Source: an uncultured bacterium (GTDB taxonomy: Bacteria; Planctomycetota; UBA1135; GCA-002686595). From it: a DNA stretch of 64,000 nucleotides. Below, piece after piece: positions 5,736 through 32,546 of this stretch; positions within the stretch are counted from its first letter, which is position 1; each line of letters starts with the position of its first letter. The stretch is from positions 62,001-126,000 of the forward strand of contig CALJGV010000006.1 in NCBI GenBank assembly GCA_938075305.1. The letters are read 5' to 3'. The notes beneath the pieces were generated by a model that saw only the letters and a list, made by a program, of their open reading frames with translations, was not told the DNA's origin and ran no database searches. Both the position numbers and the translations under genes were made by a program.

Positions 5736-5756
5736 GGGTCCAATCGGGCGTGGCCC

Positions 5757-8166: not shown

Positions 8167-8395
8167 GGTGTGCCCTTGATGGTGCGGCCCGTCACCGGCC
8201 CCCGGATCGGGGTGCAGCGTGCGGAACGGTTGCGGTGATGGGGCGAGGCCGCCTGTGCGGGGACGGCCACCCCCAGGGGAAAGCTAAGGATCCGGAGCCC
8301 CCGGTTCAAGCTCTGCCTCTGGACCCCTGATGAAGCCAGGAAGTCGTGTTCTTGGCCCCGGCAAGCGGCCCAAGGGGAACCCCTCGCCCGGAGCC

Positions 8396-9976
8396 TCAGC
8401 TGCCCTCGCGGAGGGTCCGCAGCAGCGCGTTGGCGACCTCCCGCAGCTTCGCCTCGTCGGCCCTCGCCGGGCGCCGCAGGTACTGGTCCAGGGTGGCGAT
8501 GGCGTCCTCCTTCTGCCCGCTCTCCCCCTGACACCGGGCGAGCATGAGCGCCACCTCGAGCCCGAGGGGTTCACCGTCGAGCTCGGAGTTCCGGAGCGCA
8601 CGCTCCAGCGCGGGGACGGCCTCGGCGAAGCGGCCCGCGTGGAAGCGCAGCTCCCCCAGCAGGTGGTGAGCCATCGCGTCCTCGGGGTCCACGAGCGTTG
8701 CCTGCTCGGCGAAGACCAGGGCCCCCTCGAGGTCTTGCTTCCCCATGGCCTCCACGGCTCGCTGGATGTAGACGGCGCCCGACAGCTCGGCCAGCCCGGG
8801 GACCTGGGGGTCCGTATCACGGGCGGCAGCTGCCAGCTGCCCCGCCGCCTGGGTGTCCCCGTCGGTGAGCGCCGCGGCCGCCGACTCGAGGAACCAGCCC
8901 GAGATCGTGTATCGGCCGCGCTCCCCCTCGCCGAGCAGGCCGACGGCCTCGGCGACCTGGAGGCGCAGGCTGGGGGTCTCTCCGGCAACGGCGGCGAGCA
9001 CCGCGGCGTCGAAGGCCCCGCGGGCCTCCGACTCGAAGAAGGTCTTGGCCATCCCCTGCTCGACCTCCGCGCAGCGGAGCTCGCGGGCCCGCAGGTAGTA
9101 CTTGCGAGCCGCAGCGCGGTCGCCAGCCACCTGGGCCTTGACGCCTGCTGACCAGCTCATGCGAGCGACGAGATCGCCCAAGGGCTCCCCATCCTTGAGG
9201 AGTTGCTCGAGCAGGGCGATGCCCCCGGAGAAGTCACGGTTCTCCGCGATGATGATCTCCGCGTAGGTGCGGCGCGCGTCCGGGTCGGTCGGATCGAACT
9301 CGAGGGAGCGCTGGATTCGCTCGAGCGCGAGCTGGCCCTGGTCCTCGGCCATGGCCCGCTGGGCGGCCAGCAGGTTGGCCTGCCCGAGCGGCCGGCCCAT
9401 GAACGGGAGCTCGGGGTCCGCGCGCAGCGCGGATTCCAGGAGCCCGAGCCCGATCTTCCCGCCCCCCACCGTGGTGATGGCGAGGATCCCCTGGGCACGC
9501 TGCAGTTCGGGGGTCAGGGCGCCGGCGGCCTCCATGCCCCGAGCGATCTCCTCCCGCGCCGAGTCGTGCAGCCCGATGGCTGCGTACAGCTCCGCCGCCG
9601 TGGCGTACGGCCTGGGATCGGCGGGGTTCATGGCCCGCGACGCCTCGATCTCCTGGAGCCAGGCGCCCCGATCCCCCTGGATGACCACCAGGCGGGCGCG
9701 GAGCAGCGGGCCCTCAAGGCCCAGCTCGGGTTGAATCGCGTCGAGCATGGGCGCCGCGAGGTCGGTCCGGCCCTCATCGAGCCAACGGCGGAGCTGGACC
9801 ACCTCGGCGCGACCGTCCCGCCGGAGCTTGGAGGAGGCCGCGGAGAGCGCGCCCCCGTCCCCGTCCGCGGGGCTGGATTCGGAGCCGCCGCAGCCCGCGA
9901 GGAGGGCGACGAGCGCCGCCGCCGTGAGGCGGGGGCAGGCGAGGTGCAGCAGCGAGCGTTGGGGGGAGTCGGACAT
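8396..9976 (-). CDS. TPR-repeat lipoprotein
   Basis: Lipobox LVALLAGCGGS; multiple TPR-like helical pairs (e.g. DPEDAMAHHLLGELRFHAGRFAEAVPALERAL). Confidence 0.8.
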   Translation of the reverse strand: MSDSPQRSLLHLACPRLTAAALVALLAGCGGSESSPADGDGGALSAASSKLRRDGRAEVVQLRRWLDEGRTDLAAPMLDAIQPELGLEGPLLRARLVVIQGDRGAWLQEIEASRAMNPADPRPYATAAELYAAIGLHDSAREEIARGMEAAGALTPELQRAQGILAITTVGGGKIGLGLLESALRADPELPFMGRPLGQANLLAAQRAMAEDQGQLALERIQRSLEFDPTDPDARRTYAEIIIAENRDFSGGIALLEQLLKDGEPLGDLVARMSWSAGVKAQVAGDRAAARKYYLRARELRCAEVEQGMAKTFFESEARGAFDAAVLAAVAGETPSLRLQVAEAVGLLGEGERGRYTISGWFLESAAAALTDGDTQAAGQLAAAARDTDPQVPGLAELSGAVYIQRAVEAMGKQDLEGALVFAEQATLVDPEDAMAHHLLGELRFHAGRFAEAVPALERALRNSELDGEPLGLEVALMLARCQGESGQKEDAIATLDQYLRRPARADEAKLREVANALLRTLREGS

Positions 9977-10053
9977 GGATTCGGGGGAGGTGGGCAGAAG
10001 TGTAGGCCGTCGTCGACGTGGGGTGGGTGCTCCGCTTCGGCTACCATGCGCCC

Positions 10054-11421
10054 ATGGACACGCCGCGCGGAGGCTCGAACCACAGCGACACCCCTGGATC
10101 CGTGCGCTTCGTCACCTTCGGGTGTAAGGCGAACCAGTACGACACCCAGGTCCTGCGCGAGGCCCTCGGGCGCAGGGGGCTGAAGGAGACCGGTCCCGGC
10201 GCGGACCTCGTGGTGGTGAACACCTGCACGGTCACGGCCGAGGCCGGTCGCAAGGCGCGCCAGCTGATCCGGCGGATCGGCCGGGAGACCCCTGCCGCCC
10301 GGGTCGCGGTGACCGGCTGCCTCGCAGAATCGGAGCCGGAGATCCTGCGCGAGATCCCCAACGTGGAGTGGGTCCTGGGGAACGGTGAGGCCAAGCGCCC
10401 GGTCAACTTCCTGCGCCAGATCGGCCAGGAGGTGGACCCCGAGGAGCTCGGGATTCCGGCCGGAATCACCGAATTCGCGGGCCACAGGCGCGCTTTCCTC
10501 AAGATTCAGGATGGCTGCGACAAGCGCTGCGCCTTCTGCATCATCCCCCACGTCCGGGGCCGAAGCACCAGCCGCCCGGCCGAGGAGCTGGCCTCCGAGG
10601 TCCAGCGCCTCGTGGCGTCCGGGCACGTCGAGATCGTGCTCTGCGGCATCCATATCGGCCACTGGGGCCTCGACATCGGGTCCAGCTTCTCGGCCCTGCT
10701 GCGCCGCCTGGTGGAGGTCGAAGGGGTGGGCCCCCACGGGCGTCCGGTGGAGTGGCGCCTGCGCGTCTCGTCGATCGAAGCCACCGAGGTCGACGACGAC
10801 ATGGTGGCCCTCATGGCGGACCGCCCCGATCGGATCGCGCCGCACCTCCACATGCCCATGCAGTCCGGGGCCGACCCCGTCCTGAAGGCCATGAACCGCT
10901 GGTACACGGTCGCCGAGTACCTGCAGGCCTGCCACCGGATCCGGGCCCGGCTGGATCGGCCCGCGTTCACCGCGGACATCCTGGTGGGCTTCCCGGGGGA
11001 GACCGACGCCGACTTCGAGCGCACCCTCGCCACCGCCGAGGAGGCCGGGTTCACCAAGGTCCACGTCTTCCCCTTCTCGGCACGGCCAGGGACTCCGGCC
11101 GCCGAGATGGGCTCCCGGGTGCCTCCGGAGATCTCAAGGGAGCGCCGCGCGGCCCTCTCTGAGGCCGCCAGCGGCTGGGAGGAGGCCTTCCGACGGGACC
11201 TCCACGGGGCCCGGGATCGCATCGTCCTGGAGGGTTTCGTGGGTCTCTCGGGCCGCTATCAGCGGGTGAGCATCGACCCGGATCGCATCGAGGGGGTCCC
11301 CCCCGACGCCATCGATGTGGTCCTGGAGTGCGCCACGGAGACCACCTCCGACGGGCGTGAGATCTCCCGACTCCGGGGTCGACCGGTGCACCCGGAGCGG
11401 CCGGCGGAGGTCTCACTGTGA
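10054..11421 (+). CDS. mtaB: tRNA (N6-threonylcarbamoyladenosine(37)-C2)-methylthiotransferase MtaB
   Basis: VRFVTFGCKANQYDTQVLREAL...NTCTVTAEAGRKARQLIRR...GCLAESEP...KIQDGCDKRCAFCIIPHVRG (radical SAM CX3CX2C). Confidence 0.93.
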   Translation: MDTPRGGSNHSDTPGSVRFVTFGCKANQYDTQVLREALGRRGLKETGPGADLVVVNTCTVTAEAGRKARQLIRRIGRETPAARVAVTGCLAESEPEILREIPNVEWVLGNGEAKRPVNFLRQIGQEVDPEELGIPAGITEFAGHRRAFLKIQDGCDKRCAFCIIPHVRGRSTSRPAEELASEVQRLVASGHVEIVLCGIHIGHWGLDIGSSFSALLRRLVEVEGVGPHGRPVEWRLRVSSIEATEVDDDMVALMADRPDRIAPHLHMPMQSGADPVLKAMNRWYTVAEYLQACHRIRARLDRPAFTADILVGFPGETDADFERTLATAEEAGFTKVHVFPFSARPGTPAAEMGSRVPPEISRERRAALSEAASGWEEAFRRDLHGARDRIVLEGFVGLSGRYQRVSIDPDRIEGVPPDAIDVVLECATETTSDGREISRLRGRPVHPERPAEVSL

Positions 11422-12356
11422 GTCACCCGTCCCCCCAGGAAGGGTCTTCAGGTGCCCCGGAGGACGAGGTCGCCAGCCTCAGCCTGGCCCTCCAGCACAC
11501 CCTGGCGCGCCGCGCTGCCCTCGGGCAACGGCGGTTGGCTCGCGTGGACCGCCCCGCGCCGGCCCCGGCCGGACGGCCCGGTCCATCGGCTCCCCCTGCG
11601 GCCGGTCCCACGCCACTCCCGGGGGCTGCACCAGCGCCCGTCCAGGGCACCCCTGCGCCCACGGCCCGGCCCGCTCGCTCCACGCCGGGGACGGCGGCGC
11701 CCCCGGCCGCGGCGGTCCGCCCCGTCCCCGCGGGGCATCCCGTCCCCGCGGGCGTGAGCCCGGAACGCCTCGCGGTACAGGCGAAGGGAGCCTCCTCCCT
11801 CGAGGAGCTGCGAGCCTGCGTGGCCGAATGCACCGCCTGCGCGCTCGCAGCAACCCGGACCCAGACGGTATTCGGAGACGGTGGAGGCGCGCGTCGAATC
11901 CTCTTCGTTGGGGAGGGGCCCGGGGAGCAGGAGGACCGTCAGGGGGTCCCCTTCGTGGGCCGCGCAGGGGCCCTGCTGGACGACATCATCACCAAGGGCA
12001 TGGGGCTCCGCCGGGAAGAGGTCTACATCGCCAACGTCGTCAAGTGCCGCCCGCCGGAGAATCGCGACCCCCTCCCCGAGGAAAAAGCCCTGTGCACCGC
12101 ATGGCTGGATCGACAGATCGAGCTGCTCGACCCCACGGTCATCATCCCCCTCGGACGCCACGCTGCGGGGCATATCCTGGGCGTGGATGCCCCCCTGGGG
12201 CGCCTGAGGGGCAAGGTGCACGACCACCGTGGCCGCAAAGTCGTCCCCACCTACCACCCCGCCTACCTGCTCCGTTCTCCCCACGAGAAGCGCAAGACCT
12301 GGGAGGACATCCAGCTCGCCATGGAGGTGGCCGGACTCCCCCGCCGTGGCGCATGA
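11418..12356 (+). CDS. Uracil-DNA glycosylase, family 4 (Fe-S), with Pro/Ala-rich N-terminal extension
   Basis: CVAECTACALAATRTQTVFGDGGGARRILFVGEGPGEQEDRQGVPFVGRAGALLDDI...NVVKCRPPENRDP...YHPAYLLR. Confidence 0.92.
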   Translation: MSHPSPQEGSSGAPEDEVASLSLALQHTLARRAALGQRRLARVDRPAPAPAGRPGPSAPPAAGPTPLPGAAPAPVQGTPAPTARPARSTPGTAAPPAAAVRPVPAGHPVPAGVSPERLAVQAKGASSLEELRACVAECTACALAATRTQTVFGDGGGARRILFVGEGPGEQEDRQGVPFVGRAGALLDDIITKGMGLRREEVYIANVVKCRPPENRDPLPEEKALCTAWLDRQIELLDPTVIIPLGRHAAGHILGVDAPLGRLRGKVHDHRGRKVVPTYHPAYLLRSPHEKRKTWEDIQLAMEVAGLPRRGA

Positions 12357-12540
12357 GGCGACCGCCCGCGTCGGAATGACGAGGCGCTGCGGGCAGCGGG
12401 CGCAGAACGGGAGAAGGCCGGCCCCGGCTCGGTAACCTCGTCGGCACTCTCCGATATCGGACCCGTGTCATCTGAGATGTTGGTGCCCGTTGACCCTTCT
12501 GCGCGGGAACCGTACTCTCCGAAGCCCAACAGAGGCGCTC

Positions 12541-12576
12541 CATCGGGCTCCGCCGCTTCAGCGGGGGCTCCCGATG
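12541..12576. repeat. Imperfect inverted repeat / hairpin downstream of the UDG gene
   Basis: CATCGGGCTCCGCCGCTTCAGCGGGGGCTCCCGATG; outer 7 bp and inner 4-5 bp arms pair. Confidence 0.45.
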
Positions 12577-12822
12577 CTGGATGTCGACGCGGTCCTGACC
12601 GGCCCGTAGTCTCCAGCAACGGACGCGAGATCCCCCCAACAACCCGTTCTTAGAACCGCCCCGCGTCCCGTTCCACGGCCCAGATGCGACCATCTTGTCG
12701 CCCTGGGCACGCATCCCCCCCAGCGTTCGCTCCTGTCCCCCACTCACCGGCTGTGTCGGTGACGACCTGGGGCGGACGACCGTCATCTCCCCCCGACGAC
12801 CCACACGCGTCTGACTCGATCC

Positions 12823-15456
12823 ATGCGGACAAGTCTTTCCTACCTTCCGTTCCTGATCGCGGCATCCGTCGCATGCCAAGGCACTGACCCCAGCATCTCC
12901 ACCGATGCGGTCGCGGACACCGCGACCTCGGAGTCCAGTGACCTCTTCACGTCCAACGTCGCCTCTGCGGGCGAGGACGCCGACTTCGCGCTGGCCACCA
13001 ACGTGGTCGCCCAGGAAGGCGACGACGGTGACGACGGCGCCGACGAGAGCATCAACACCGCTCTGCTGCGGATGCAGAAGAGCAAGGTGCTCTCCCAGCA
13101 GTTCGCCGCCCGCGCGGACGAGGCGCTGAGCCGGTCGGATCTCCAGGGGGCGCTCGTGCTCTACTCCGAGGCGGTCCAGATGGACCCGGCGAACCAGGCG
13201 GCCCGCGAGGGGTTCCGCAAGGTCGAGGCCATGATGGGCGACCCGCTCGCCCAGGGCGCCGAGGGCTTCGCCTCCGAGGCAGACCGCTACCTGGTCAAGC
13301 AGACGATGACCCGCGCCCGCGCTGAGGAGTGGGACGCCAAAGGTGAGGCCGCCATGCGCGCCGGCGACTACGACCGCGCGATCGAGAGCTTCCGTCAGGC
13401 GGAGACGATCCTCCGCATCGACCCGCTCATCGCGACCAACTCCCTCGACGAGCGGCTCGTGAGCAACAAGCTCAAGGAGGCCATGCTCCTCCGCGACGAG
13501 GCCGCGCAACTGGAGATCGCGCAGCAGCGCTCCGCCGCCGCCGAGGAGGCCGCCCGCAAGCAGGACGCCGAGCGCGACCGGGTGCGCAACAAGCTCAGCA
13601 GCTACTACGAGCGCGCCAACTCCGCCTTCATGGCAGAGAACTACGACGAGGCCGCGAAGTTCGCCCAGCTCATCCTCGTGGCCGACCCCGGCAGCGAGGC
13701 CGCCCAGGAGCTCCTCGAGACCTCGCGCGCCGCCGGGCACGCCAAAGTCGACGAGCGCCAGCGCCGTGACTACCGCGAGGAGTGGCTCCGCACGTTCGAC
13801 GACCTGCGGACCATGGACCTCCCCCAGACGCAGCCCCTGGTCTTCGACCTGGACCGCTGGAAGGAAGTCAGCACCCGCCGCTCCTTCTCCAGCATTCAGA
13901 TCGAGTCTGCGGACGACCCCGAGCGCGCCGCCGTGCTCGAGCGCCTCGACCAGACCGTGGTCCCGGCTCGCTTCGGCGACGAGGACGGCCCCGCTGCGCT
14001 CTCCAGCGTCGCGAACTTCCTCCAGGCCCAGAGCGGCGTCAACTTCCAGATCAGCTCGCTGGTCTACGACGAGATCGGTGAGGACGAGGTCGCGGTCGAC
14101 CTCGACGTCTCCGAGCGCAGCGTCACCCAGATCCTCGACATGATCGCTCTGCTCACCGAGGGCATGAGCTGGAAGATCGAGGACGGCGTGGTCCTGTTCG
14201 TCACCGACGGCGAGATGACCGGCGGTCAGGTCAGCGCGACCTACTCGGTGGCCGACCTCGTGACGCCGATCCCGGACTATCCGGGGCCCGACATCAACAT
14301 CTCCCCCTCCGACGGCCTCCCCATCCCGGACGAGGACCTCCCGGAGCGTGAGGCCAACGTGATCGGCACCGGCGAGCTCGAGGAGCTGATCATGAACAAC
14401 ATCGCCCCGGCGAGCTGGGGCGACGATCCGGCCAACTCGATCCGCGTCACGGAGAAGGGAACCCTCGTGGTCAGCCAGACCCCCGAGGTCCAGGGCAAGA
14501 TCAAGGAGCTCCTCGACGACCTCCGCGAGTCCACGGGCATCCTGGTCGATATCCAGGCGCGCTTCATGCGCGTTGAGGACAGCTTCCTCGAGGACATCGG
14601 CGTCGACTTCCGCGGCCTCGGCCTCCCGGGCCCCGGCCCGAACGGCGTCGAGTTCAACGACTTCGGCGACGGCTCGTCCGAGTTCGGCGACGTCATCGGT
14701 CGCACCAGTGACGTCGGCGCCTACTTCGACGACGGCCCCGACGGCAGCTACCGCGGCCGGGTCGAGGACCTGTACGACTCCCAGCTTGGCTCGGACAACT
14801 TCCAGGCCTCCGGCGGGCTCTCGTTCCAGTGGGCGTTCCTCAACGACCTCCAGCTGGAGCTCATCCTGCGCGCGGTCAGCAAGAGCGAGCGCAAGGAGAC
14901 AGTGGTCGCCCCGCGGCTGCTCGTGAACAACGGCGCCCGCGCCAACATCTCGGTGCTCAACCAGGTCGCTTACGTCTCTGACTTCGACGTCCAGATCGCC
15001 CAGGCCGCGTCCATCGCGGACCCGATCATCAACGTCATCCAGGACGGCGTGGTGCTCGACGTGCGACCGGTGGTCTCCGCTGACCGCCGCTTCATCACCC
15101 TCGAGCTGCGCCCGACCATCGCCAAGCTGAAGCGTCCGATCGAGGACAAGCCGACCACCCTCGGCACCCAGAACTCGGTCACCATCCAGCTGCCCGAGGT
15201 CTCCATCGAGCGAGTCCGGACCTCCATCCCGATCATGGATGGCGGCACGGTCCTCCTCGGCGGCCTGAAGGAGTCCCGCAAGCAGGACAAGCGCTCCGGC
15301 GTCCCGTTCCTCAACAAGATTCCGCTGCTGAACTTCCTGTTCGAGCGGAAGGGCAACTACACCGCCAACCGCAAGCTCCTGATCCTGCTCAAGGGCGTCA
15401 TCGTCATCCCGAAGGAAGACGCCCCCAGCGACGCCGAGCTCGGCCGCGACTTCTGA
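12823..15456 (+). CDS. Lipoprotein secretin-domain protein (T2SS/T3SS secretin superfamily) with N-terminal TPR/coiled-coil region
   Basis: Lipobox-like ASVAC; TPR-like region; STN/N0-like SVTQILDMIALLTEGMSWKIEDGVVLFVT; C-terminal MDGGTVLLGGLKESRKQDKRSGVPFLNKIPLLNFLFERKG...LLILLKGVIV. Confidence 0.88.
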   Translation: MRTSLSYLPFLIAASVACQGTDPSISTDAVADTATSESSDLFTSNVASAGEDADFALATNVVAQEGDDGDDGADESINTALLRMQKSKVLSQQFAARADEALSRSDLQGALVLYSEAVQMDPANQAAREGFRKVEAMMGDPLAQGAEGFASEADRYLVKQTMTRARAEEWDAKGEAAMRAGDYDRAIESFRQAETILRIDPLIATNSLDERLVSNKLKEAMLLRDEAAQLEIAQQRSAAAEEAARKQDAERDRVRNKLSSYYERANSAFMAENYDEAAKFAQLILVADPGSEAAQELLETSRAAGHAKVDERQRRDYREEWLRTFDDLRTMDLPQTQPLVFDLDRWKEVSTRRSFSSIQIESADDPERAAVLERLDQTVVPARFGDEDGPAALSSVANFLQAQSGVNFQISSLVYDEIGEDEVAVDLDVSERSVTQILDMIALLTEGMSWKIEDGVVLFVTDGEMTGGQVSATYSVADLVTPIPDYPGPDINISPSDGLPIPDEDLPEREANVIGTGELEELIMNNIAPASWGDDPANSIRVTEKGTLVVSQTPEVQGKIKELLDDLRESTGILVDIQARFMRVEDSFLEDIGVDFRGLGLPGPGPNGVEFNDFGDGSSEFGDVIGRTSDVGAYFDDGPDGSYRGRVEDLYDSQLGSDNFQASGGLSFQWAFLNDLQLELILRAVSKSERKETVVAPRLLVNNGARANISVLNQVAYVSDFDVQIAQAASIADPIINVIQDGVVLDVRPVVSADRRFITLELRPTIAKLKRPIEDKPTTLGTQNSVTIQLPEVSIERVRTSIPIMDGGTVLLGGLKESRKQDKRSGVPFLNKIPLLNFLFERKGNYTANRKLLILLKGVIVIPKEDAPSDAELGRDF

Positions 15457-15490
15457 TCCCTGGCCCTCCCCGAGGGGGCCAAGGACGCAG

Positions 15491-15531
15491 CCGCCGCGCG
15501 GCCCGCCTCAGCGGGCCGCGCGGCGGTTTCC
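15491..15531 (+). terminator. Rho-independent terminator after secretin 1
   Basis: Perfect 16-bp stem CCGCCGCGCGGCCCGC-CTCA-GCGGGCCGCGCGGCGG followed by TTTCCTTGTT. Confidence 0.85.
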
Positions 15532-15756
15532 TTGTTGGACGAGATCGGGCACGCAAGGGGCGCTCACCCGTTCACAGGGACGCCGGCTTGCCGTATCCTC
15601 TGCCGCCCGCTTCCTGGTCCCCAGGAGCGTCCGAGCCCGCATCCCGGATTCCTCGGCGCGCCCCCGGTCACCTCTCACATTCAGCGGACTAAGACCCGGT
15701 CGAAGCCCCACGCCGGCCTCCCCCCCAGCGAGGCCCCGCGAACGCGACGAACGAAC

Positions 15757-18744
15757 ATGACCATTTCATTCAGCGCCAGCCCCATCCTCCGCCAACTCCT
15801 CCTCCTCACCGCCGCGATCGGCCTCACCGTCCCGGCCGCAGCGCAGTCGAGCTCGGAGAAGGCCGTCGAGGCGGAGATCGACTTCGCGCGCGGACTCGCG
15901 AAGGAGTGGGCTTTCGTCGACATGGCCGAGTCGGTGCTCGACATCGTCGCGGAGAAGGGCGTCTCGGGTCGCATGGAGTCCGAGCTCGAGCTCGTCCGCT
16001 GCGACGTCTACTACATCGGCGCGAAGGCCTCGACCGATCCCACGCGGCGCAACGACCTCTTCGAGCAGGCCATGTCCGCGTACGAGGACTACGTGACCGC
16101 CAACATGGGGGCGGACAACCGCATCGACGCCCAGCGCACGATGGTCGAGCTCGCCAGCTTCTACGCTCGCAGCCTCGACATCTCCCTCGAGGAAGCTGTC
16201 GGTGAGGAGGCCGAGGCCCTCCGCGAGCGCAAGATCGCCGTGCTGGAGAAGTCCGTGAGGCTCTGCGAGGAGCTCATCGAGGAGATCGACGCCACCGACC
16301 CCATGACGCCCGCCCTCAAGACGAAGCGGGACGTTCTGATGCTCGACAAGGCGGGGCTCTATGCGCGCATCAGCTCCGCGACGCCCGACGACGCCTTCTT
16401 CAGCGAGCAGGCCATCGAGACATACTCCGAGCTCATCTTCGACGTCGGTGAGGGCACGGAGATTGCCCTGCGCGCCAACGCCGGGATCGGCGACGTCTAC
16501 GCCAGCACCGGGTTCCCCGAGGAGGCCCGCGACTTCTACATCGGCGTCATCAACAGCGTGATCCCGATCGACCCCGACGAGCGCGAGGAGATGCTCGAGT
16601 GGTCCAGGCTGCCCCTGGACATCAAGCAGAAGCGCTTCCTCTACGTGGAGCTCGTGATCCCCGGCGTTCAGAGCACCTCGCGGGAGCTGGGTGAGCTCGA
16701 GGGCGCGATCACCGCCGGCCTCTTCTTCTACAACCTGTACCGCCAGGAGGGCTTCTCGCTCTCCGTCCTCGGGAACTCCGCCATGCTCGAGTTCGCCAGC
16801 ACCCTCGTGGACGCCGGCGGCTTCATCGGCGGCGACCTGGGTGAGGGCAGCGCCCGCTGGTTCGCCACGGAGGCAGAGATGCGGGAAGAGGTGAAGTCCC
16901 GCCGACAGCAGCGCGACAGCATCTCCTTCGCCCTCGACCTCGCCAAGCAGATCGCGAGCGACAACCCCGGGACGGAGGCCGCCCGCGAGGGCGGCGAGCT
17001 CATCGCCTCCATCAACGAGCGCCCGGGCATCGAGATCCCCCCTGCCCAGCTCCTCCAGGCCGCGGACGCCAAGCGCGCCGGCGAGAACTACGAGGAGGCC
17101 CTGGCCGGGTACCGCGAGTTGCTCACTCGCCTCGACGCCCTGGACCCCGCCGACCGGGTCGAGTTCGGCGCCAAGGTCTACAACGGCATGGGCCTCACCC
17201 TGCGCCGCCAGGACCGTCAGCTCGAGGCCGCCATGGCCTTCCGCGAGGCGCTCCTCAACTGGCGCGATGACAACCTCAATCGCTCCAATGCCCGCGGCTA
17301 CCAGAACACCATCAAGGCCTGGGCCCGCACCCTGGGTATCGACAAGCAGGATGACGTGGCCGCGCTCATCCGTGAAGCGGAGAACTTCGTCATCGCCTTC
17401 GACGAGGAGGGCTCTGCCGACGAGATCATCTTCAACCGCGGCGAGAAGCGCCGCAGTGACCGCGACTGGGCAGGCGCTATCGAGGAGTACGAGCAGATCA
17501 AGCCGGAGGACGGGTTCTACGAGCTCGCCCAGATTCAGATTGGCCTGTGCAAGCTCTCGAACAAGGACCTCCGGGGCGCCCGCGGCGCCTTCGACGACTA
17601 CCTGACCGGTCGCGCCAAGGACCCCGAGTTCACCCCCACGAGCCCGCTCGAGGAGGCGCGCCGCAGCCAGGCACTCTCCCGCGCTGAGTTCTACCGCGCG
17701 TACATCGACCACGTGATCGCCAACGGGCGCTACAAGAAGTCCGACGGGGCCGATGACAGCGGCTTCGCCATGGTCATCGAGGAGCTCCGCAACTACGGCA
17801 GCACCTACGGCAACGCCGGGAAGTTCGTGATCCGCGCCCAGTCCATGCTGGCGGACTCGTACGCCAAGACCGGCGACGCCGCGTCGGCGGCCGCCATCGT
17901 GGCCGAGATGGTCGCGTCCAGCCCGGACGCACCGGAGACCGCGAGCGCGTCGATCGACCTCTACCTCGCACTCAATGCGCGACGCGATCGGCTCGAAGCG
18001 GCCGGATCTCCGGATCCCAACGCCTACCGGAAGGTGACGAGCGAGATGGCGAAGGCCCTCGAGGTCGCCAACGGCATCACCCCCAGCCCCGAGTTCAAGA
18101 ACCTCCGGGCCGAGAGCAAGCTCTGGCTCGAGCTCCAGGAGTGGGCGAAGGCCAAGGCTCCCCTCGAGCGCATGGCCTCGCGCTTCAAGGGCGACGCGAA
18201 GTACGGCAAGACCGTCACGAACCAGGTCACCCCGGACCTCGCCGAGTGCCTGGTCGAGCTCGGGGAGATGGAGGCCGCGAAGAACCTCCTGGCTCCCCTC
18301 ATCGTCGGCGACGACGCCCCGCTCAAGTCGCGACGCCCCACGCTGCTGCTCAGCCGAGCCATGCTCGGCTCCGTCAACGGCGGCGGCAGCGAGCGGGTCA
18401 CCGCCACGCGCGGCGCGGGTGGAACGGAGGAGGAATTCCAGTTCATCACCGGCCGACTGAACACCTTCGCCCAGTCCGGTGACAAGTGGTTCGCCTGCGA
18501 CTGGTACGAGGCCAAGTTCATGTCGATCTACGCCTACTACGTCTGGGGCCTCCAGGACGACCGCAAGGCCGCCAGCGCGACGCGGATCATGGACGAGGTG
18601 GTCGTGACCCTCGAGAACGACCTGCAATTCACCATCGTGGAGGAGAACTGCTCCGGGGAAGAGACTGAGCCCGCGCTGCGCGCGCGCCTCGGCAGCGGGG
18701 TGCTCTCCGCCCACTACCGCTGGCTCTACGAGCAGACCCGCTGA
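15757..18744 (+). CDS. Large secreted TPR-repeat protein (about 995 aa)
   Basis: Signal peptide MTISFSASPILRQLLLLTAAIGLTVPAAAQ; many TPR-like helical pairs; tracked ORF is extended upstream to 15532. Confidence 0.85.
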   Translation: MTISFSASPILRQLLLLTAAIGLTVPAAAQSSSEKAVEAEIDFARGLAKEWAFVDMAESVLDIVAEKGVSGRMESELELVRCDVYYIGAKASTDPTRRNDLFEQAMSAYEDYVTANMGADNRIDAQRTMVELASFYARSLDISLEEAVGEEAEALRERKIAVLEKSVRLCEELIEEIDATDPMTPALKTKRDVLMLDKAGLYARISSATPDDAFFSEQAIETYSELIFDVGEGTEIALRANAGIGDVYASTGFPEEARDFYIGVINSVIPIDPDEREEMLEWSRLPLDIKQKRFLYVELVIPGVQSTSRELGELEGAITAGLFFYNLYRQEGFSLSVLGNSAMLEFASTLVDAGGFIGGDLGEGSARWFATEAEMREEVKSRRQQRDSISFALDLAKQIASDNPGTEAAREGGELIASINERPGIEIPPAQLLQAADAKRAGENYEEALAGYRELLTRLDALDPADRVEFGAKVYNGMGLTLRRQDRQLEAAMAFREALLNWRDDNLNRSNARGYQNTIKAWARTLGIDKQDDVAALIREAENFVIAFDEEGSADEIIFNRGEKRRSDRDWAGAIEEYEQIKPEDGFYELAQIQIGLCKLSNKDLRGARGAFDDYLTGRAKDPEFTPTSPLEEARRSQALSRAEFYRAYIDHVIANGRYKKSDGADDSGFAMVIEELRNYGSTYGNAGKFVIRAQSMLADSYAKTGDAASAAAIVAEMVASSPDAPETASASIDLYLALNARRDRLEAAGSPDPNAYRKVTSEMAKALEVANGITPSPEFKNLRAESKLWLELQEWAKAKAPLERMASRFKGDAKYGKTVTNQVTPDLAECLVELGEMEAAKNLLAPLIVGDDAPLKSRRPTLLLSRAMLGSVNGGGSERVTATRGAGGTEEEFQFITGRLNTFAQSGDKWFACDWYEAKFMSIYAYYVWGLQDDRKAASATRIMDEVVVTLENDLQFTIVEENCSGEETEPALRARLGSGVLSAHYRWLYEQTR

Positions 18745-18813
18745 TCGCCCACGCCTCCCCCTCCCCGCCCCACGCTCCCCACGTCCGCGACGCCCGATCT
18801 CCCCGAGACTGTG

Positions 18814-19980
18814 ATGAAGATCGCCACCCTCACCTCCCTCGCCCGTACTGCCCGCCACCTCGCCCCCGCCGCCCTCGCGGCAGTCGCGATGCTCTCGGCC
18901 CCCGCTGACGCGGCCCCCCAGGCCAAGCCGGACCAGGTCTTCCGGATCAACCCGCGGACCAACAAGGCCAGCACGGTCACGGGCACCGTCACCGAGGACG
19001 GCCTCGAGAACGTCAAGGTGACCCGCCGCGACGGACGGGAGATCTCGATCGACTCGGCCGAGGTGATCCAGATCGCCTGGGGCAGCGGCTCAACGGCCTT
19101 CAGCGACGGCGGCACGTACGCCGGCCGCGGCGCGTGGGAAGAGGCCGTGAAGAGCTACCAGGAGGCCGCCGGCGACGGTGCCGTTCGCGAGCCCCTGCGC
19201 GCCGAGGCCCGCCGGAGGGCAGCCACCTCGCTCATGGCGCTGGCCGCCAGCGACATGACCCGCTTCGGAGATGTCGCCGGCGAGTGCGATCGGTTCATGA
19301 CCGACTTCCCGTCCGCGCGAAGAGTCCCGGAGGTGCTGGCGCTCAAGTCGCGGGCCCAGTGGCTGAACGGTGACGCCGCCGCCGCCCGGGATGGGTATCG
19401 CTCGATCTACGACGCCGGCAACGGCGGCGCAGAGGGCTACTCCCCCATCACCACCGCCGACGCCGCCATGCACGCCGCCTACGCGGCCATCAGCGCCGGC
19501 GACAACGTCGGGGCCCGTGAGCTCTTCGACCTCGCCGCCGCGGCCTACGGGGCCATCGAGAGCGAAAACGCGTCGGTCATGGCCGCTGCGGCCGCTGGAA
19601 CGGAGGTCGCCAGCATGGGCGAGGCCATCACCAAGGCCGCCTCCGGGGACGCCAAGAGCGTTCGCCGCACCTTCGAGTCCGCCTCCAAGAGCAGCGAAAC
19701 CTCGGCCGGAATGGCCGCAGCGCACCTCGGCCTGGGGCACGCCTGGCTCGCCGAGGGCGACTTCCGCAAGGCCCAGTTCGAGTTCGCCTGGGTCGCTGGC
19801 CTCGATCACACGTCCGCCGATCGCCGCGCTGAGGCCCTGGTCGGGCTCGCTGAGGCGGGCCTCGCCGCCGGTGAAGCCGGGGACGCGAATGCCGCCAAGA
19901 CGGCCCTCCGGCAGGTCGCGTCTCAGTACGGCGCCACGCCCTCTGCACGCAAGGCGGCGCAACTTCTCGAATCGTTGTAA
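18814..19980 (+). CDS. Secreted TPR-repeat protein with N-terminal beta-rich domain
   Basis: Signal peptide MKIATLTSLARTARHLAPAALAAVAMLSAPADAAPQ; then VTEDGLENVKVTRRDGREISIDSAEVIQIAWG; TPR-like repeats. Confidence 0.8.
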   Translation: MKIATLTSLARTARHLAPAALAAVAMLSAPADAAPQAKPDQVFRINPRTNKASTVTGTVTEDGLENVKVTRRDGREISIDSAEVIQIAWGSGSTAFSDGGTYAGRGAWEEAVKSYQEAAGDGAVREPLRAEARRRAATSLMALAASDMTRFGDVAGECDRFMTDFPSARRVPEVLALKSRAQWLNGDAAAARDGYRSIYDAGNGGAEGYSPITTADAAMHAAYAAISAGDNVGARELFDLAAAAYGAIESENASVMAAAAAGTEVASMGEAITKAASGDAKSVRRTFESASKSSETSAGMAAAHLGLGHAWLAEGDFRKAQFEFAWVAGLDHTSADRRAEALVGLAEAGLAAGEAGDANAAKTALRQVASQYGATPSARKAAQLLESL

Positions 19981-20100
19981 AACATCACGGTTGCCGACGG
20001 CCCAGCGAGCGGTACGTTCTCTGTCCGGAAAACGGCCCTGCGGCCAGCATCCACCCTAGCCCTCGGGCTCCGTATGCCTCTCGGCGAGCGGTTCCCGTCT

Positions 20101-20179
20101 GGTCGGGATTCGATCCCCCCGACCAACCCAACCCAATCCAATTCATCCCCTCACCGCCCTGGTGACCATTCGGGTCACC
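20101..20179 (+). promoter_or_regulatory. Two consecutive hairpins in the TPR-exbB intergenic leader
   Basis: GGTCGGG(20101-20107)/CCCGACC(20118-20124) and GGTGACC-ATTCG-GGTCACC (20161-20179). Confidence 0.4.
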
Positions 20180-20270
20180 TCCCGGGTCCGGTGAGCCCAC
20201 GGTCCCTCGGCTCCTCCCCCTCCGATCCACGGAGGTCCGGTCAGAGCCCGATACGCCCCCAGCCATCCCA

Positions 20271-20978
20271 ATGAACGCGAACTCCCTCCTCGCTCGACTG
20301 GCACCTGCAGCTGCCGCTGGCCTCGTCTTCCTGTCGACGGCGACCCCGGCCATGGCCCAGAACACCACCGCCGGCGACGTCTTCAAGAATGCTGGCCCCG
20401 TCGGCTGGTGCATCATGGTCCTCTCGATCGTCGCCCTCGCGGTGATCATCGAGAACATGACCTCCCTGAAGCGCGACAAGCTCGCCCCGCCGGAGCTCAT
20501 CGACGAGATCGAGGTCCTCTTCAACGACGAGAAGTTCCAGGAGGCCATGGACCTCTGCGAGGAGGAGGAGACCTACTTCACCCGCGTCTGCGGCGCCGGC
20601 ATCTCCAAGATCGGCCACCCCTACGAGGTCGTGGAGAAGTCCCTCGAGGAGATGGGCGACGAGGAGTCGATCAAGCTCCACCAGAAGATCGGCTGGCTCT
20701 CCCTCATCGCCAACGTCGCCCCGATGATGGGTCTGCTCGGCACCGTGATGGGAATGGTCACGGCGTTCAACGAGATCGCCCGCTCGCAGGGTCAGGCCAA
20801 CCCGGCCGACCTCGCCGCCGGTATCTCCCAGGCGCTCCTGACCACCATGCTCGGCCTGATCGTCGCCATCCCGGTGACGGCTTCCTTCGCCTTCCTGCGC
20901 AACCGCCTCATCAAGACGATCATCGAGACCGGTGCAATCGTCGAGGACCTCTTTGAGCGCTTCCGTCCGCAGTCCTGA
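20271..20978 (+). CDS. exbB: MotA/TolQ/ExbB proton channel family protein
   Basis: GWLSLIANVAPMMGLLGTVMGMVTAFNEIA...GISQALLTTMLGLIVAIPVTASFAFLRNRL, hallmark ExbB/TolQ TM segments; N-terminal signal peptide. Confidence 0.95.
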   Translation: MNANSLLARLAPAAAAGLVFLSTATPAMAQNTTAGDVFKNAGPVGWCIMVLSIVALAVIIENMTSLKRDKLAPPELIDEIEVLFNDEKFQEAMDLCEEEETYFTRVCGAGISKIGHPYEVVEKSLEEMGDEESIKLHQKIGWLSLIANVAPMMGLLGTVMGMVTAFNEIARSQGQANPADLAAGISQALLTTMLGLIVAIPVTASFAFLRNRLIKTIIETGAIVEDLFERFRPQS

Positions 20979-21125
20979 GCGGACGCCGGCGACGGCGGTG
21001 CCCCTGGGGCATCAGCCGTCCGCTGGCTGGCGAGGCCGGTCACTTCCGGCCCCCGCCCCTCACCAATCGGAGAGTTGCCCCCGGACGGCAAGACGCCGCC
21101 CCCCCCGCGCCCACGGAGACTGCAC

Positions 21126-21635
21126 ATGAACCTGGCAAAGCACGACGCAGAGACGGATATGGAGATGGACATGACGCCGATGATCGACGTCGTCTTCCTC
21201 CTCATCATCTTCTTCATGATCATCACGGACATGACTCAGCAGGACCTGGAGGACGTTGACCTCCCGGTGGCCGAGCACGCCCAGCCGGACAAGCCGGACC
21301 CCAAGGAGTGGCGGCCGATCATCAACGTCCCCCACGACGGGGACATGATCATCAAGAAGAAGACCTACTTCGATCCCGACGTGAACACCGGTCCGGACAA
21401 GTGGAACGACCTTGACGTCTGGCTGAAGTCGGCGGCCAACCGGATGAAGAAGGAGCCGATCGCTCCGGGTAGCTCCAAGATGATCCCGGACGAGCCCGTC
21501 CTCATCCGCGCCGACCAGTCCACGCCCTTCAAGTACGTGCAGTACATCATGGAGCGCTGCGGCCAGGAAGGAACGCAGATCTGGAAGCTGCAGCTCGCCG
21601 TCTCCACACCCGATACCAACGAGGCCGGCAACTGA
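21126..21635 (+). CDS. exbD: ExbD/TolR family biopolymer transport protein (paralog 1)
   Basis: EMDMTPMIDVVFLLIIFFMIITDM (TM with conserved Asp), periplasmic domain. Confidence 0.93.
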   Translation: MNLAKHDAETDMEMDMTPMIDVVFLLIIFFMIITDMTQQDLEDVDLPVAEHAQPDKPDPKEWRPIINVPHDGDMIIKKKTYFDPDVNTGPDKWNDLDVWLKSAANRMKKEPIAPGSSKMIPDEPVLIRADQSTPFKYVQYIMERCGQEGTQIWKLQLAVSTPDTNEAGN

Positions 21636-21698
21636 TCGGCGGGGCGAGCCTGCTCGCCCCCCTGTCCGCCACGCCCACCACAAGGGAGTCCAAAAGAC

Positions 21699-22235
21699 AT
21701 GGCCAAGAAGAAAGGAAGCGCCCTCAGCGAGATCACCAACGAGAAGTGCGAGCTGCAGATGACGCCGATGATCGACGTCACGTTCCTGCTGCTCATCTTC
21801 TTCATGTGCACGCTGAAGTTCAAAGTCCTCGAGGGCAAGCTCGGCGCGTACCTGCCCAAGGACGTCGGCGTCAACACGAGCCAGGCCGAGCCTGTCGAGA
21901 AGGTGGACATCCGCCTCGACGTGCTGCGCCCGGGCAACAAGATGCGCGAGACCCGGGATGGCCTCGTGCCCTACACCGATGAGGACGTGAAGGCGAACCG
22001 CCGCTTCGTCTACGACAACACCCGCCAGATCCGCTACACGGTGGGCACGAAGCGCACCACCAAGCTGGAGGAGGTCGTGAAGTCGCTCAAGGCGTTCATC
22101 AAGGCGGATCCCGAGAAGAAGGCCACCATTGACCCCAGGACGGACGTCACGAACCTGGACGTGGTCCTGGTCCTCGACGCGGCGATGGACGCTGGCTACA
22201 CGGACATCACCTTCAAGGGCTCCTTCGAGCGCTGA
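21699..22235 (+). CDS. exbD: ExbD/TolR family biopolymer transport protein (paralog 2)
   Basis: CELQMTPMIDVTFLLLIFFMCTLKFKVLEGKLGAYLPKD. Confidence 0.93.
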   Translation: MAKKKGSALSEITNEKCELQMTPMIDVTFLLLIFFMCTLKFKVLEGKLGAYLPKDVGVNTSQAEPVEKVDIRLDVLRPGNKMRETRDGLVPYTDEDVKANRRFVYDNTRQIRYTVGTKRTTKLEEVVKSLKAFIKADPEKKATIDPRTDVTNLDVVLVLDAAMDAGYTDITFKGSFER

Positions 22236-22262
22236 TCCTCTCGGATCTCCGCCCCCACACCG

Positions 22263-22298
22263 CAGCGCCCCCGGACGACCCGTCGTCCGGGGGCGCTG
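22263..22298 (+). terminator. Stem-loop terminator after exbD2
   Basis: Perfect inverted repeat CAGCGCCCCCGGACGA-CCCG-TCGTCCGGGGGCGCTG; weak T-tract. Confidence 0.7.
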
Positions 22299-22562
22299 CT
22301 CGTTCCAGCCGTACGGAAGTCCCACCGTCCGGCCCCACCCATGGCCCAGGGAAGCGGCTCGGGGCCGGGAGCCCTCCAGGCCGGAGCTGCGCGGGTCGGG
22401 GCGCCCCCTGATCTCTGCCGCGCCCCTTGGCGCCACCCAGAGCAGCCCGTCCGGTGACCGGAGGCTCCATGGTGCCGGAAGTGAATGGGCCCTCGAGGTG
22501 AACGGAGCCCTGAGCACGAATGGCGCCCGCTCCAGGGGTGGGCTGCGCAGCGAGGCTCCGGT

Positions 22563-22609
22563 CCCAGCCCTCTGGCCCAGCCCTCTGGCCCAGCCCCCTG
22601 GCCCAGCCC
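22563..22609. repeat. Short tandem repeat, 13-bp unit (TCTGGCCCAGCCC), 3 copies plus a partial copy
   Basis: cccagccc tctggcccagccc tctggcccagccc cctggcccagccc. Confidence 0.85.
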
Positions 22610-22743
22610 AGTTCGCCAGTCCGTTGCCCTATTCGTCGCTCCTTCGCCGGAGGAGTGCCTGGCGAGAGACCCATGACCGTCACAGCCCCCTTCAGAGCTC
22701 AGCTCGCCCGTGCAGATCATGGGGCTGATTCGCCTCAGGGCCT

Positions 22744-22772
22744 TTGACGGTCCACGACCCCTTCCTTACTCT
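22744..22772 (+). promoter_or_regulatory. Candidate sigma70-like promoter upstream of secretin 2
   Basis: TTGACG-17 bp-TACTCT; visual match only. Confidence 0.3.
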
Positions 22773-23048
22773 TTTGGACCCGTTCCTTCCTCCCATCGGG
22801 CGCAGCACGCGCTCGCCAGGATGAGCGTTCGGCTACGGCAGCTCCCCAGCTTCCGTTGATCGCGACTCAGGGACCCGATCCTCCCCGGAGGTCCCCCTGG
22901 TAGCGTGTCCATCCCCCCACAAAGCTCGTCGGCCGCGAACCGTCTAAACCTCGGTAGCCGGTCGATTTTCTACCGGTAGCTGCCAAGGTCTCGACACCTT
23001 CAAGCTCCCTCCCCCCACCTCCTTGCATTCGACGTGAGTCTTCCCCGC

Positions 23049-25685
23049 ATGAGGATCACCGGCCCCGCCCTCAACGTGTCCTTCCTGCTCATCACCGGCA
23101 GCGCCTCCATGGCTCTTCTGGGATGTGCATCGACCTCTTCTGAGGCTCCCCAGGACGCTGAAGTCAGCACGACCAGCGAAGGTCGCCGCGCCACCATCGA
23201 CCCCTCTACGATCGAGCGCGCCGGCGGCCTTACCGCTGCGCAGGACGATCAAGCCGGGGCGGACGCCGAGCTCCTGACGCTGCGCGAGCAGAAGAACAGG
23301 CTCCTCTTCGACGCCGCCATGGCACGCGCTGCCGACATGAAGCAGCAGCTGATGCTCGAGGAGGCGCTGGCCCAGGTGGACCGCGCCCTCGCGATCAACA
23401 GCGAGAGCCTCGAGGCGAAGCAGATGCGCGCCGAGCTGGCCGCGCTCCTCGACCGTCCCGACGGCGTGAACGCCATCGGCGACGCCGAGGCCTCGCGCTT
23501 CGCCCTCAAGCTCGAGCAGCTCAAGGTCACGGTCCGTCAGGACCTCAGTGACGCCCGCAAGATGAAGCAGCGCGGCGATTACGCCGGCGCCGTGGCTGAG
23601 CTCCGGCTCGCCCAGACCAAGATCGAGGTCGGCGGCTACGACATCGACTGGGAAGGGACGGACGTCGAGGTCCGCGACCTGCTGGCCCAGACCGAGCAGG
23701 AGCGCGCCCTCGCCGAGAGGAACGCGAAGGACCTCTCCCGCCGCGAGGCCTTCGAGCTCCTCAAGCAGAAGGAGACCGCCGAGGCCGACCGCCAGCAGGC
23801 GCAGATCGACCTGATCGTCGCCGAGGCCGCCACCGCCTTCGAGGAGGGTCGCTACCGCGACGCCGAGGAGTCGGCCCGCCTCGCGCTCTCCAAGCAGCCC
23901 AAGAACGACCAGGCCGAGGAGATCCGCACCGCGGCCTTCCGCGCCGACCGTCAGCAGGTCCAGGCCGACTACATCGTCAAGAAGTCGGAGCAGTTCAAGA
24001 AGTACCGTGAAGAGCTCGAGGAGATGCGGATCGCCCGCAACGAGATCATCACGCTCCCCGACGCCGACGAGTGGCGCCGCAAGTCGATCCTGCGGACCAA
24101 GCGCGTCTACAACCCCTCGAAGAAGATCTCCCCCATCGAGGCGGAGCTTCGCGCGGCCCTCGCCTCCAGCAAGGTAACGCTGCCGAGCATCGAGGACGAG
24201 GAGAGCCTCAAGGTCGTGATGGGCTACGTGGCCGACTTCACGAGCCTGCCCATCATCGTGGACCAGGCCGCCGAGGACCTCGTGTCCGACGAGGGCATCG
24301 TCTACAACTTCAACTTCCAGAACGAGCTGACGGCCGAGCAGGCCATCAACCGGATCGTCGCCGCCTCCGGCGAAGACATCCGCTGGACCATCATGTTCGA
24401 CGCGGTGCTCATCACGAGCGCCGAGAAGGCCGTCGGCGCCCCCGAGCCCGTCGTCCACGACGTCTCGGACCTGATCTTCGCGCTGACCGACTTCCAGGGT
24501 CCTCGCATCGACCGGATCCGACTGATCGACCAGCTCGAGGACGACGACGGCGGTGGCCCCTTCGGCGCCATCGGTGAGGCCCCGCGGATCATCGAGCTGG
24601 AGAACCTCCAGACCCTGATCACCGACACGGTCGCCCCGGACTCCTGGGAAGTGGAAGGCGTCGGCATCGAGGTCGGTGAGACCAACCTGCTGGTCACCCA
24701 GACCCCCGAGGTCCAGATGCAGATCGTCGAGTTCCTGAACGACCTCCGTCGCTTCAACTCGTCGCTCGTCACCATCGAGTCCAAGTTCCTCGAGGTCACC
24801 GACAACTTCATCCAGGAGATCGGCAACGACTTCCGGGGCCTCGACAACCGGGTGCTTGAGGACGTCACGAACGGCCTCGAGGACCAGGCCTCCCTTGGCC
24901 TCGACAACGGCGGGACCGGCACCGACGGCACAAACGCCGCCGGCGCGCCCAGCGCGGGTCTCTTCTTCGATGACGGCCTGGACGGCGCCTTCAGCGCGAC
25001 CACCCAGAACTTCTTCGAGACCGCCCTCGGAAGTAGCCTCAGCACCATCGGGGGCCTCAGCTTCCAGATGACCTTCTTCGACGACGCCGAGGTCTCCTCG
25101 ATCCTGCGCGCCGTCGAGAAGAGCGAGAAGAGCCAGATCGTCAACAGCCAGATGCTCAGCGTCCAGGACTCCCAGCGCGCCTACGTGGCGGTGCTGAACC
25201 AGCGCGCTTACATCCAGGACTTCGACGTCGAGGTCGCCCAGTTCCAGGCGGTCGCCGACCCGGTGGTCAACGTGCTCAATGAAGGCGTCGTCCTCGACGT
25301 GCGCCCCACGATCCTCGAGAACCGCCAGTGGCTGCGCCTCGAGATCCAGCCCACCGTGGCCAAGGTCGTCGCGCTCCGGAACTTCTCGACCACCCTCGGC
25401 GGCAACACCGCCCCGGTCGAGTTCCAGCTCCCCGAGCTCGAGGTCCAAAGCGTCAACACGAGCGCCTTCCTTCCGGACGGCGGCTCGCTGCTCCTGGGCG
25501 GGCTCTCACGGATCCGCAACATCGAGCGTCGGGCGGAAGTCCCGTGGATCGGGCAAATTCCCGTCCTCGGCTTCCTCTTCAAGAGCGAAGGCTTCAACGA
25601 CGAGCGCAGCTCGCTCATGGTGCTCGTGAAGGCGACGATCACGAACATCCGCGAGTCGGTCGAGTCGAAGCTGGAGTCCCAGTGA
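23049..25685 (+). CDS. Lipoprotein secretin-domain protein, paralog of 12823..15456
   Basis: Lipobox SMALLGCAS; shared DxVAPxSW...VTQTPEVQ.QI..FL.DLR motif block; C-terminal DGGSLLLGGLSRIRNIERRAEVPWIGQIPVLGFLFKSEG...LMVLVKATI. Confidence 0.88.
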   Translation: MRITGPALNVSFLLITGSASMALLGCASTSSEAPQDAEVSTTSEGRRATIDPSTIERAGGLTAAQDDQAGADAELLTLREQKNRLLFDAAMARAADMKQQLMLEEALAQVDRALAINSESLEAKQMRAELAALLDRPDGVNAIGDAEASRFALKLEQLKVTVRQDLSDARKMKQRGDYAGAVAELRLAQTKIEVGGYDIDWEGTDVEVRDLLAQTEQERALAERNAKDLSRREAFELLKQKETAEADRQQAQIDLIVAEAATAFEEGRYRDAEESARLALSKQPKNDQAEEIRTAAFRADRQQVQADYIVKKSEQFKKYREELEEMRIARNEIITLPDADEWRRKSILRTKRVYNPSKKISPIEAELRAALASSKVTLPSIEDEESLKVVMGYVADFTSLPIIVDQAAEDLVSDEGIVYNFNFQNELTAEQAINRIVAASGEDIRWTIMFDAVLITSAEKAVGAPEPVVHDVSDLIFALTDFQGPRIDRIRLIDQLEDDDGGGPFGAIGEAPRIIELENLQTLITDTVAPDSWEVEGVGIEVGETNLLVTQTPEVQMQIVEFLNDLRRFNSSLVTIESKFLEVTDNFIQEIGNDFRGLDNRVLEDVTNGLEDQASLGLDNGGTGTDGTNAAGAPSAGLFFDDGLDGAFSATTQNFFETALGSSLSTIGGLSFQMTFFDDAEVSSILRAVEKSEKSQIVNSQMLSVQDSQRAYVAVLNQRAYIQDFDVEVAQFQAVADPVVNVLNEGVVLDVRPTILENRQWLRLEIQPTVAKVVALRNFSTTLGGNTAPVEFQLPELEVQSVNTSAFLPDGGSLLLGGLSRIRNIERRAEVPWIGQIPVLGFLFKSEGFNDERSSLMVLVKATITNIRESVESKLESQ

Positions 25686-25911: not shown

Positions 25912-26634
25912 ATGAAGGCCGTCCTCTTCGACATCGACGACACCCTGTTCTCCACCACGGAGTTCGCTCGAAACGCGCGCGCGCGTGCCGTGGACGCCAT
26001 GATCGAGACGGGACTCGACGCGACTCACGAGGAGATCGCCGCCGAGTTGCAGGAGGTCGTGCGCGAGTTCGGCTCCAACTACAACCAGCACTACAACAAG
26101 CTGATCCAGCGCCTCCCCCCCCATCAGAAGCGTGACGTGAACCCGGCCCTGATCGTGGCGGCCGGCATGGCGGCGTACCACGACACCAAGTTCAAGGGCC
26201 TGCGCGCCTTCGACGACGTGGAGCCATTCCTGAAGGCCCTCTCGAACGCCAAGATCCGGACCGGGATCATCACCCACGGGTGGACCACCAAGCAGTCCGA
26301 GAAGCTCATCCGCCTCGGCCTCGTGCCGCTCCTCGGACCGCGGAACGTCTTCATCTCGGACCAGGTCGGGATCAGCAAGCCCAACGTGAAGCTCTACCAG
26401 CACGCGCTTCGAGAGATGGGCCTGCTTCCCGGCGAGGTCCTCTACGTGGGCGACAACCTCGCCCATGACATCGTGCCACCCGTGAGCATCGGGATGCACA
26501 CCGCCTGGATCCGGCGGGCTGCCCGCGAGGGTCAGGACGTCGAGGCCGCGAACCCCGAGTTCATCGTGGACGACTTCCGCGAGCTCGCCGCGATCCTCAG
26601 GGAGCGCTTCCAGGTCCCCCTCGGGGAGTTCTAG
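25912..26634 (+). CDS. HAD superfamily (subfamily IA) hydrolase, TIGR02253-like
   Basis: MKAVLFDIDDTLFST...TGIITHGWTTKQSEKLIRLGL...GISKPNVKLYQHAL...VLYVGDNLAHDI. Confidence 0.9.
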   Translation: MKAVLFDIDDTLFSTTEFARNARARAVDAMIETGLDATHEEIAAELQEVVREFGSNYNQHYNKLIQRLPPHQKRDVNPALIVAAGMAAYHDTKFKGLRAFDDVEPFLKALSNAKIRTGIITHGWTTKQSEKLIRLGLVPLLGPRNVFISDQVGISKPNVKLYQHALREMGLLPGEVLYVGDNLAHDIVPPVSIGMHTAWIRRAAREGQDVEAANPEFIVDDFRELAAILRERFQVPLGEF

Positions 26635-29785: not shown

Positions 29786-29841
29786 GGGAGTCTTGTGGCT
29801 TGCGGGGCGTCGCTGGTGAAGGGGAGGTCAGCCGCGCGGGC

Positions 29842-30842: not shown

Positions 30843-32546
<1,704 letters not shown>

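Follow-up and report, generated by a model that had tools for sequence, protein, structure and literature searches.

Known secretin systems are powered by cytoplasmic ATPases. The Myxococcus Agl/Glt gliding motor (AglRQS) combines a single TolQ-like protein with two that are TolR-like, has TPR partners and is not known to use secretins. PVC bacteria encode an uncharacterised TPR-TolQ-TolR-TolR-vWA module with a vWA force transducer that carries an SHLS-like His helix (PMC12204202). The outer membrane of Akkermansia contains an abundant PilQ, Amuc_1098, a protein of 907 aa with N-terminal TPR and a C-terminal secretin domain (PMC4960237). In Campylobacterota flagella, PilMNO/PilQ-derived parts and large TPR proteins organise 5:2 ion motors (PMC11870540).

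The window analysed here, a stretch of 64,000 nucleotides from an uncultured planctomycete, contains a block of seven genes that can be compared with each of these systems. Like the PVC vWA module, the block encodes a homologous, TPR-adjacent ExbB and two unlike ExbD proteins, but in place of the vWA transducer it has the two secretins and a long solenoid of TPR type. With Akkermansia Amuc_1098-1102 the first secretin, SEC1, shares an N-terminal TPR region and a C-terminal secretin core, and in many families a PilM/N-like partner is encoded upstream of it; however, the block combines a pair of secretins that are paralogues with a linked ExbB/ExbD motor, and the window locus lacks the Amuc_1099-1102 partners. 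The motor family and its conserved proton-path residues are those of Tol-Pal and TonB-ExbB-ExbD, whereas TolA or TonB, TolB and Pal are missing at the locus, the predicted outer-membrane partner is a secretin and there are two ExbD genes. The Campylobacterota scaffold drives a flagellum, works with MotAB rather than ExbBD and has no secretin ring, and is an analogy only.

In the open papers that we searched (most subscription papers fell outside the search), no description of a secretin-TPR-ExbB-ExbD block was found. Both halves of the block are of known kinds, and it is their combination that is undescribed in those papers. We lean towards reading the locus as a proton-motive-force-driven trans-envelope machine ending in outer-membrane secretin rings. 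A secretin wired to a proton motor would, if true, be a new way to power outer-membrane traffic or movement and would connect two large machine families.

Organization of the locus

The block occupies window positions 12823-25685, with all seven genes on the + strand in the order SEC1-TPRL-TPRS-ExbB-ExbD1-ExbD2-SEC2. A first-pass annotation of this DNA had claimed such a co-oriented order of seven genes, and gene calls and Pfam matches bear it out. The features of the locus are:

11418-12356, +: upstream neighbour, uracil-DNA glycosylase (UDG) family (PF03167, 124 bits)
12823-15456, +: SEC1, an 877-aa lipoprotein secretin (PF00263, 95 bits; model domains; secretin fold matches in the PDB; found in 61/61 relatives)
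15489-15528, +: terminator-like hairpin with an 18-bp stem directly 3' of SEC1 (from the sequence)
15757-18744, +: TPRL, a 995-aa secreted TPR-like solenoid (signal peptide; AlphaFold2 model; generic TPR fold matches)
18811-19980, +: TPRS, a 389-aa secreted TPR protein with a YbgF/CpoB-like C-terminal part (TIGR02795; kept in synteny)
20271-20978, +: ExbB/TolQ-family proton channel, 235 aa (PF01618, 97 bits; invariant Thr sites)
21126-21635, +: ExbD1/TolR-family protein, about 169 aa (PF02472, 73 bits; invariant transmembrane Asp)
21699-22235, +: ExbD2/TolR-family protein, 178 aa (PF02472, 57 bits; invariant transmembrane Asp)
22236-23033, +: 798-bp gap, the site of a sulfatase-family gene of ~540-800 aa in many other families
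23034-25685, +: SEC2, an 883-aa lipoprotein secretin and SEC1 paralogue (PF00263, 88 bits; SEC2 clade support 1.0)
25912-26634, +: downstream neighbour, HAD-family hydrolase (PF00702, 73 bits)

The Pfam Secretin cut-off is 27.5 bits. TPRL starts at 15757, its reading frame being open from 15532, and the most likely start of ExbD1 is the ATG at 21126. The UDG gene serves as a position marker and is not thought to be a machine component; the HAD-family gene probably has a housekeeping role.

The window locus encodes no TolA, TolB or Pal (Pfam), no TonB or TonB-dependent receptor and no vWA protein (family scan and gene reading). It also has no assembly ATPase, PilC/GspF platform or pilins, and none adjoin the block in the related loci that we read; those that the genome encodes are parts of other loci. 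The earlier claim that the secretins have no T2SS, T3SS or T4P partners is correct for the window locus, but many other families have such partners at their homologous locus, as described below. Rfam gave no matches to RNA elements in the window.

Both TPR proteins begin with a signal peptide as judged by reading their sequences. TPRL scores 29.3 bits with Pfam TPR_12, just below the cut-off of 30.1, and AlphaFold2 models it as an all-helical solenoid over its entire length (mean pLDDT 88), for which a fold search returned generic TPR matches. The 18th of these is a chain of the Campylobacter flagellar scaffold, with a low TM-score, which by itself is no evidence that TPRL is a relative of that scaffold, and we set the idea aside. 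TPRS has no Pfam match and is recognized by the NCBIfam model TIGR02795, a YbgF/CpoB-like TPR (E 4e-8).

Conservation of the block

SEC1 is present in all 61 relatives, from genus to order level. The order UDG-SEC1-TPRL-TPRS-ExbB-ExbD1-ExbD2-SEC2-HAD is found in most of the 20 relatives read, and a scan of public genome records gave 195 matches, with the same UDG-to-HAD order in most of the 80 best loci. These best 80 of the 195 matches are all from Planctomycetota or unnamed bacteria and include Planctomycetes bacterium Poly30, Pla86 and Pla163, which we take to be Saltatorellus-clade strains. This clade has a striking cell biology. Nearly all genomes of the order to which the window belongs have the block, the complete genomes of the three cultured strains included, which makes it testable. 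UDG precedes SEC1, or a PilMN-PilO-FN3-SEC1 set, in many families, and the HAD gene is downstream of SEC2 in most loci.

A scan of the phylum with a single SEC1 protein as query gave SEC1-type matches at 1e-30 in 220 of 294 genomes; the weakest of these matches may be other secretins. SEC1 and ExbB lie at most 12 kb apart (median 6.3 kb) in 52 of the 62 phylum genomes with both SEC1 and a best ExbB listed; in the other 10 they are on different contigs, and in none are they far apart on one contig. By chance alone, the two would be expected within 12 kb with a probability of about 0.5% per genome. We read the synteny itself in some 19 families, with genes called by a GC-bias method that fails for AT-rich genomes (L053, L145). 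The first-pass annotation had named a cluster unique to this genome as the outcome that would undo its proposal; the synteny is instead conserved phylum-wide. No relative was found in viral contigs, and a viral origin was rejected.

The ExbB and ExbD proteins

ExbB residues T158 and T191/T192 are invariant in 14 sequences and align with TolQ pore regions. The transmembrane Asp, which in ExbD1 lies in the motif MTPMID, is invariant in all 27 ExbD1 and ExbD2 sequences. As aligned, the proton-carrying residues of Tol and Ton motors are invariant in the ExbB and ExbD of the block. Some families have additional ExbD-like copies, or proteins with an ExbD domain, downstream of ExbD2 (L226, 6072-7781; L166 and L168 of G272), suggesting that the dimer partner of the motor was duplicated repeatedly.

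In G301 and G299, which have no such secretins, homologues of ExbB (210-216 bits), ExbD1 and ExbD2 adjoin a vWA protein with a His in its membrane helix. These loci fit the PVC module (PMC12204202). A TPR protein also adjoins the motor in G301, one of the two loci read, though it resembles TPRS only marginally (10.6 bits). The block shows motor modules swapping outer-membrane partners.

Secretins and motors elsewhere in the genome

The predicted structure of SEC1, of moderate confidence (mean pLDDT 65), consists of a TPR-like helical region (72-330), N0-like and N1-like domains (~379-592) and a secretin core (~669-861). SEC2 has a clear lipobox (LLGC); that of SEC1 (SVAC) is less canonical, and its Cys is invariant in the alignment. 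SEC2 shares with SEC1 the N-terminal TPR domain that is also found in Amuc_1098. Despite the PF00263 matches and the N0/N1-like domains, both proteins score far below the cut-offs of the GspD, PilQ and T4P models, and SEC1 gives 94 bits against the Amuc_1098 family model, the cut-off of which is 750 bits.

The source genome (4.42 Mb, about 90% complete) encodes six secretins in total. The other four are found in a GspD-E-F-G-H-I-J-type locus on C14, with PilM-N-O-Q at C6 217 kb, in a Tad locus on C24 and with a GspK-like gene at C10 122 kb, their neighbours being assigned by gene order and sequence reading and only in part by Pfam. In a tree rooted, arbitrarily, on the Tad secretin, SEC1 and SEC2 group together with a support of 0.978 to the exclusion of the other four secretins of the genome (PilQ, GspD, Tad and C10), and SEC2 forms a single clade with a support of 1.0 (36 sequences, many families). 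The tree identifies SEC1 and SEC2 as ancient paralogues. We rejected the possibility that they are the secretins of the genome's T2SS or T4P, as those loci have secretins of their own that branch apart. The first-pass annotation had asked whether a T2SS or T4P locus elsewhere lacks its secretin; the GspD-E-F-G-H-I-J, PilMNOQ and Tad loci each have one.

The motor family is further represented by an ExbB-ExbB-ExbD-TonB-like set on C17 and by a flagellar MotA on C32. The C17 set (L065) adjoins a large receptor-like protein, the TonB and the receptor both being read by eye. TolB_N was found in none of 28 good relatives, and TolB is essentially absent. Because the T2SS, pilus, Tad, TonB and flagellar sets have their own secretins or motors, TolB is essentially absent, and SEC1 and SEC2 group apart from the other four secretins with SEC2 as one clade, the SEC1-SEC2-motor block is an additional system and its secretin pair is old.

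The main and serious rival to a proton-driven secretin machine is a Tol-like envelope-stabilising role. The motor and TPR proteins would replace Tol-Pal in holding the outer membrane in at division or contact sites, and the secretin rings would be anchors, not channels. It is to be taken seriously because of the near absence of TolB in relatives and the near universality of the block in the order, which suits a housekeeping function. Apart from the TonB pair and the flagellar MotA, no other motor of the Tol/Ton family was found in the genome, and TPRS resembles YbgF/CpoB. We nevertheless consider such a role rather unlikely, as TolA, TolB and Pal are not at the locus, two full-length secretin cores have been kept deep in the phylum, suggesting channels, and the same motor without these secretins has a vWA transducer instead.

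PilMNO-like genes at the locus in other families

In about a dozen families PilM/N-, PilO- or FN3-like genes are found after UDG and directly upstream of SEC1. Because these genes precede SEC1, and given the 257 bits that the SEC1-linked PilM/N-like protein scores against the Amuc_1101 family and the 94 bits of SEC1 with Amuc_1098, the secretin half appears to descend from a PilMNOQ-type complex. The window's order has apparently lost these inner-membrane alignment genes from the locus, and the missing PilM/N-PilO-FN3 set counts against the machine reading. Many families also have a sulfatase-family gene between ExbD2 and SEC2 that is not in the window locus.

Three other PilM-like proteins in the source genome match the SEC1-linked PilMN weakly. 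We considered whether PilMN-PilO and the sulfatase had moved to C32, which encodes a PilM (587 aa), a PilO-like protein (178 aa) and a sulfatase (516 aa), and rejected it. The C32 PilM is present in 59 of 61 relatives. Since C32-type PilM coexists with SEC1-linked PilMN in other families and the C32 sulfatase is not a conserved neighbour, this PilM is a separate old paralogue and not a relocated partner. A sigma-factor-linked PilM-PilO-like pair was read on C32 (L198, G000:C32:161000-178000, at 8023-10353), and the C32 PilM-like protein, which is widespread in the phylum, makes a third type of PilM in addition to that of the T4P. One family (G289; L161, 3522-4583) has a duplicated FN3-like protein adjoining SEC1.

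On C10, genes for an FHA protein, PilM-like and PilO-like proteins, a 904-aa TPR protein and G/H/K-like pseudopilins are found with no adjacent secretin in the part read (L197, G000:C10:1-17000, at 5034-17000). In two families (G083, G262) a similar pseudopilin cassette, which includes a PilM, is found in divergent orientation at a distance of about 5-13 kb from the SEC block. The C10-type cassette may be a functional partner of the block.

These loci bear on a pilus-type explanation, by which SEC1 (and SEC2) would be PilQ rings of an Akkermansia-type T4P-like machine with its PilMNO and pilins encoded elsewhere, ExbB/ExbD assembling or positioning the rings. The PilMN-PilO-FN3-SEC1 order in many families, the similarities to Amuc_1098 and Amuc_1101, the presence of ATPases, pilins and PilM-like genes at other sites of the genome and the pseudopilin cassette near the block in two families are all in keeping with it. 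It is decidedly unlikely, however, given that PilMNOQ is encoded separately in the genome and includes a secretin (L064), that none of the loci read showed pilins or ATPases next to the block, and that SEC1 and SEC2 score well under the cut-offs of the T4P models and are separate from PilQ of this genome in the tree.

Linkage of the secretins to the motor

Hairpins with stems of at least 10 bp are found 3' of SEC1 in 33 of the 58 SEC1 genes examined and are mostly missing where SEC2 adjoins SEC1. The terminator-like hairpin suggests that SEC1 can be transcribed separately from the motor genes, a point that we count against a secretin-motor machine. We also count against it that the second secretin does not adjoin the block in some families (f28). 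In favour of the machine, G014, in which the block is split, has kept both parts: SEC1 and SEC2 share a contig, and TPRL-TPRS-ExbB-ExbD1-ExbD2 are together on a second. ExbB is on another contig than SEC1-SEC2 in G011, G027, G031, G043 and G047, where ExbB alone was seen, and no matching ExbB was found for the split block of G034.

Such splits, the hairpin between SEC1 and the remaining genes, and the UDG and HAD housekeeping neighbours, whose conserved order means that some of the synteny here is not functional, would suit two modules kept together merely by inherited gene order with no common machine, but this is very improbable given that six of the seven split genomes checked have retained the motor and that the SEC1-TPRL-TPRS-motor order persists across very distant families. 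The crateriform structures of Planctomycetia (PMC5394234) are not supported as the product of the block, Planctomycetia-looking genomes (f30) being without SEC1 matches.

In the proton-driven secretin machine that we propose, an ExbB pentamer would surround two ExbD chains, perhaps an ExbD1/ExbD2 pair, and the proton gradient would move the ExbD periplasmic domains. TPRS and TPRL may relay this motion across the periplasm to the N-terminal TPR domains of SEC1 and SEC2, a force path that is a guess because no TonB/TolA-like linker is encoded at the locus. The relayed motion would open, brace or actuate the secretin rings, and a large substrate or fibre would pass. The long TPR protein and the secretin would then replace the vWA transducer that the same motor has in other PVC bacteria.

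The first-pass annotation had put forward an undescribed ExbBD-secretin-TPR system. The conserved coupling of the genes and their separateness from the T2SS, T4P, Tad and TonB sets support it in part; it needs amending for the pilus parts and the sulfatase-family protein that many families have at the locus, and for a motor half with homology to a PVC module that had already been noted with a vWA transducer. It is plausible, at a little short of even chances, that the block represents a new machine class in many deep-branching Planctomycetota lineages, with ExbB/ExbD directly actuating secretins through TPR linkers and a PilMNOQ-type complex joined to the PVC motor module.

Other genes in the window

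By gene reading, window positions 29405-42917 on the - strand contain cytochrome c oxidase-like subunit genes followed by an alternative-complex-III-like set. Two nearby oligopeptide-type ABC transporter-like gene sets on opposite strands were likewise read at 46687-63243.
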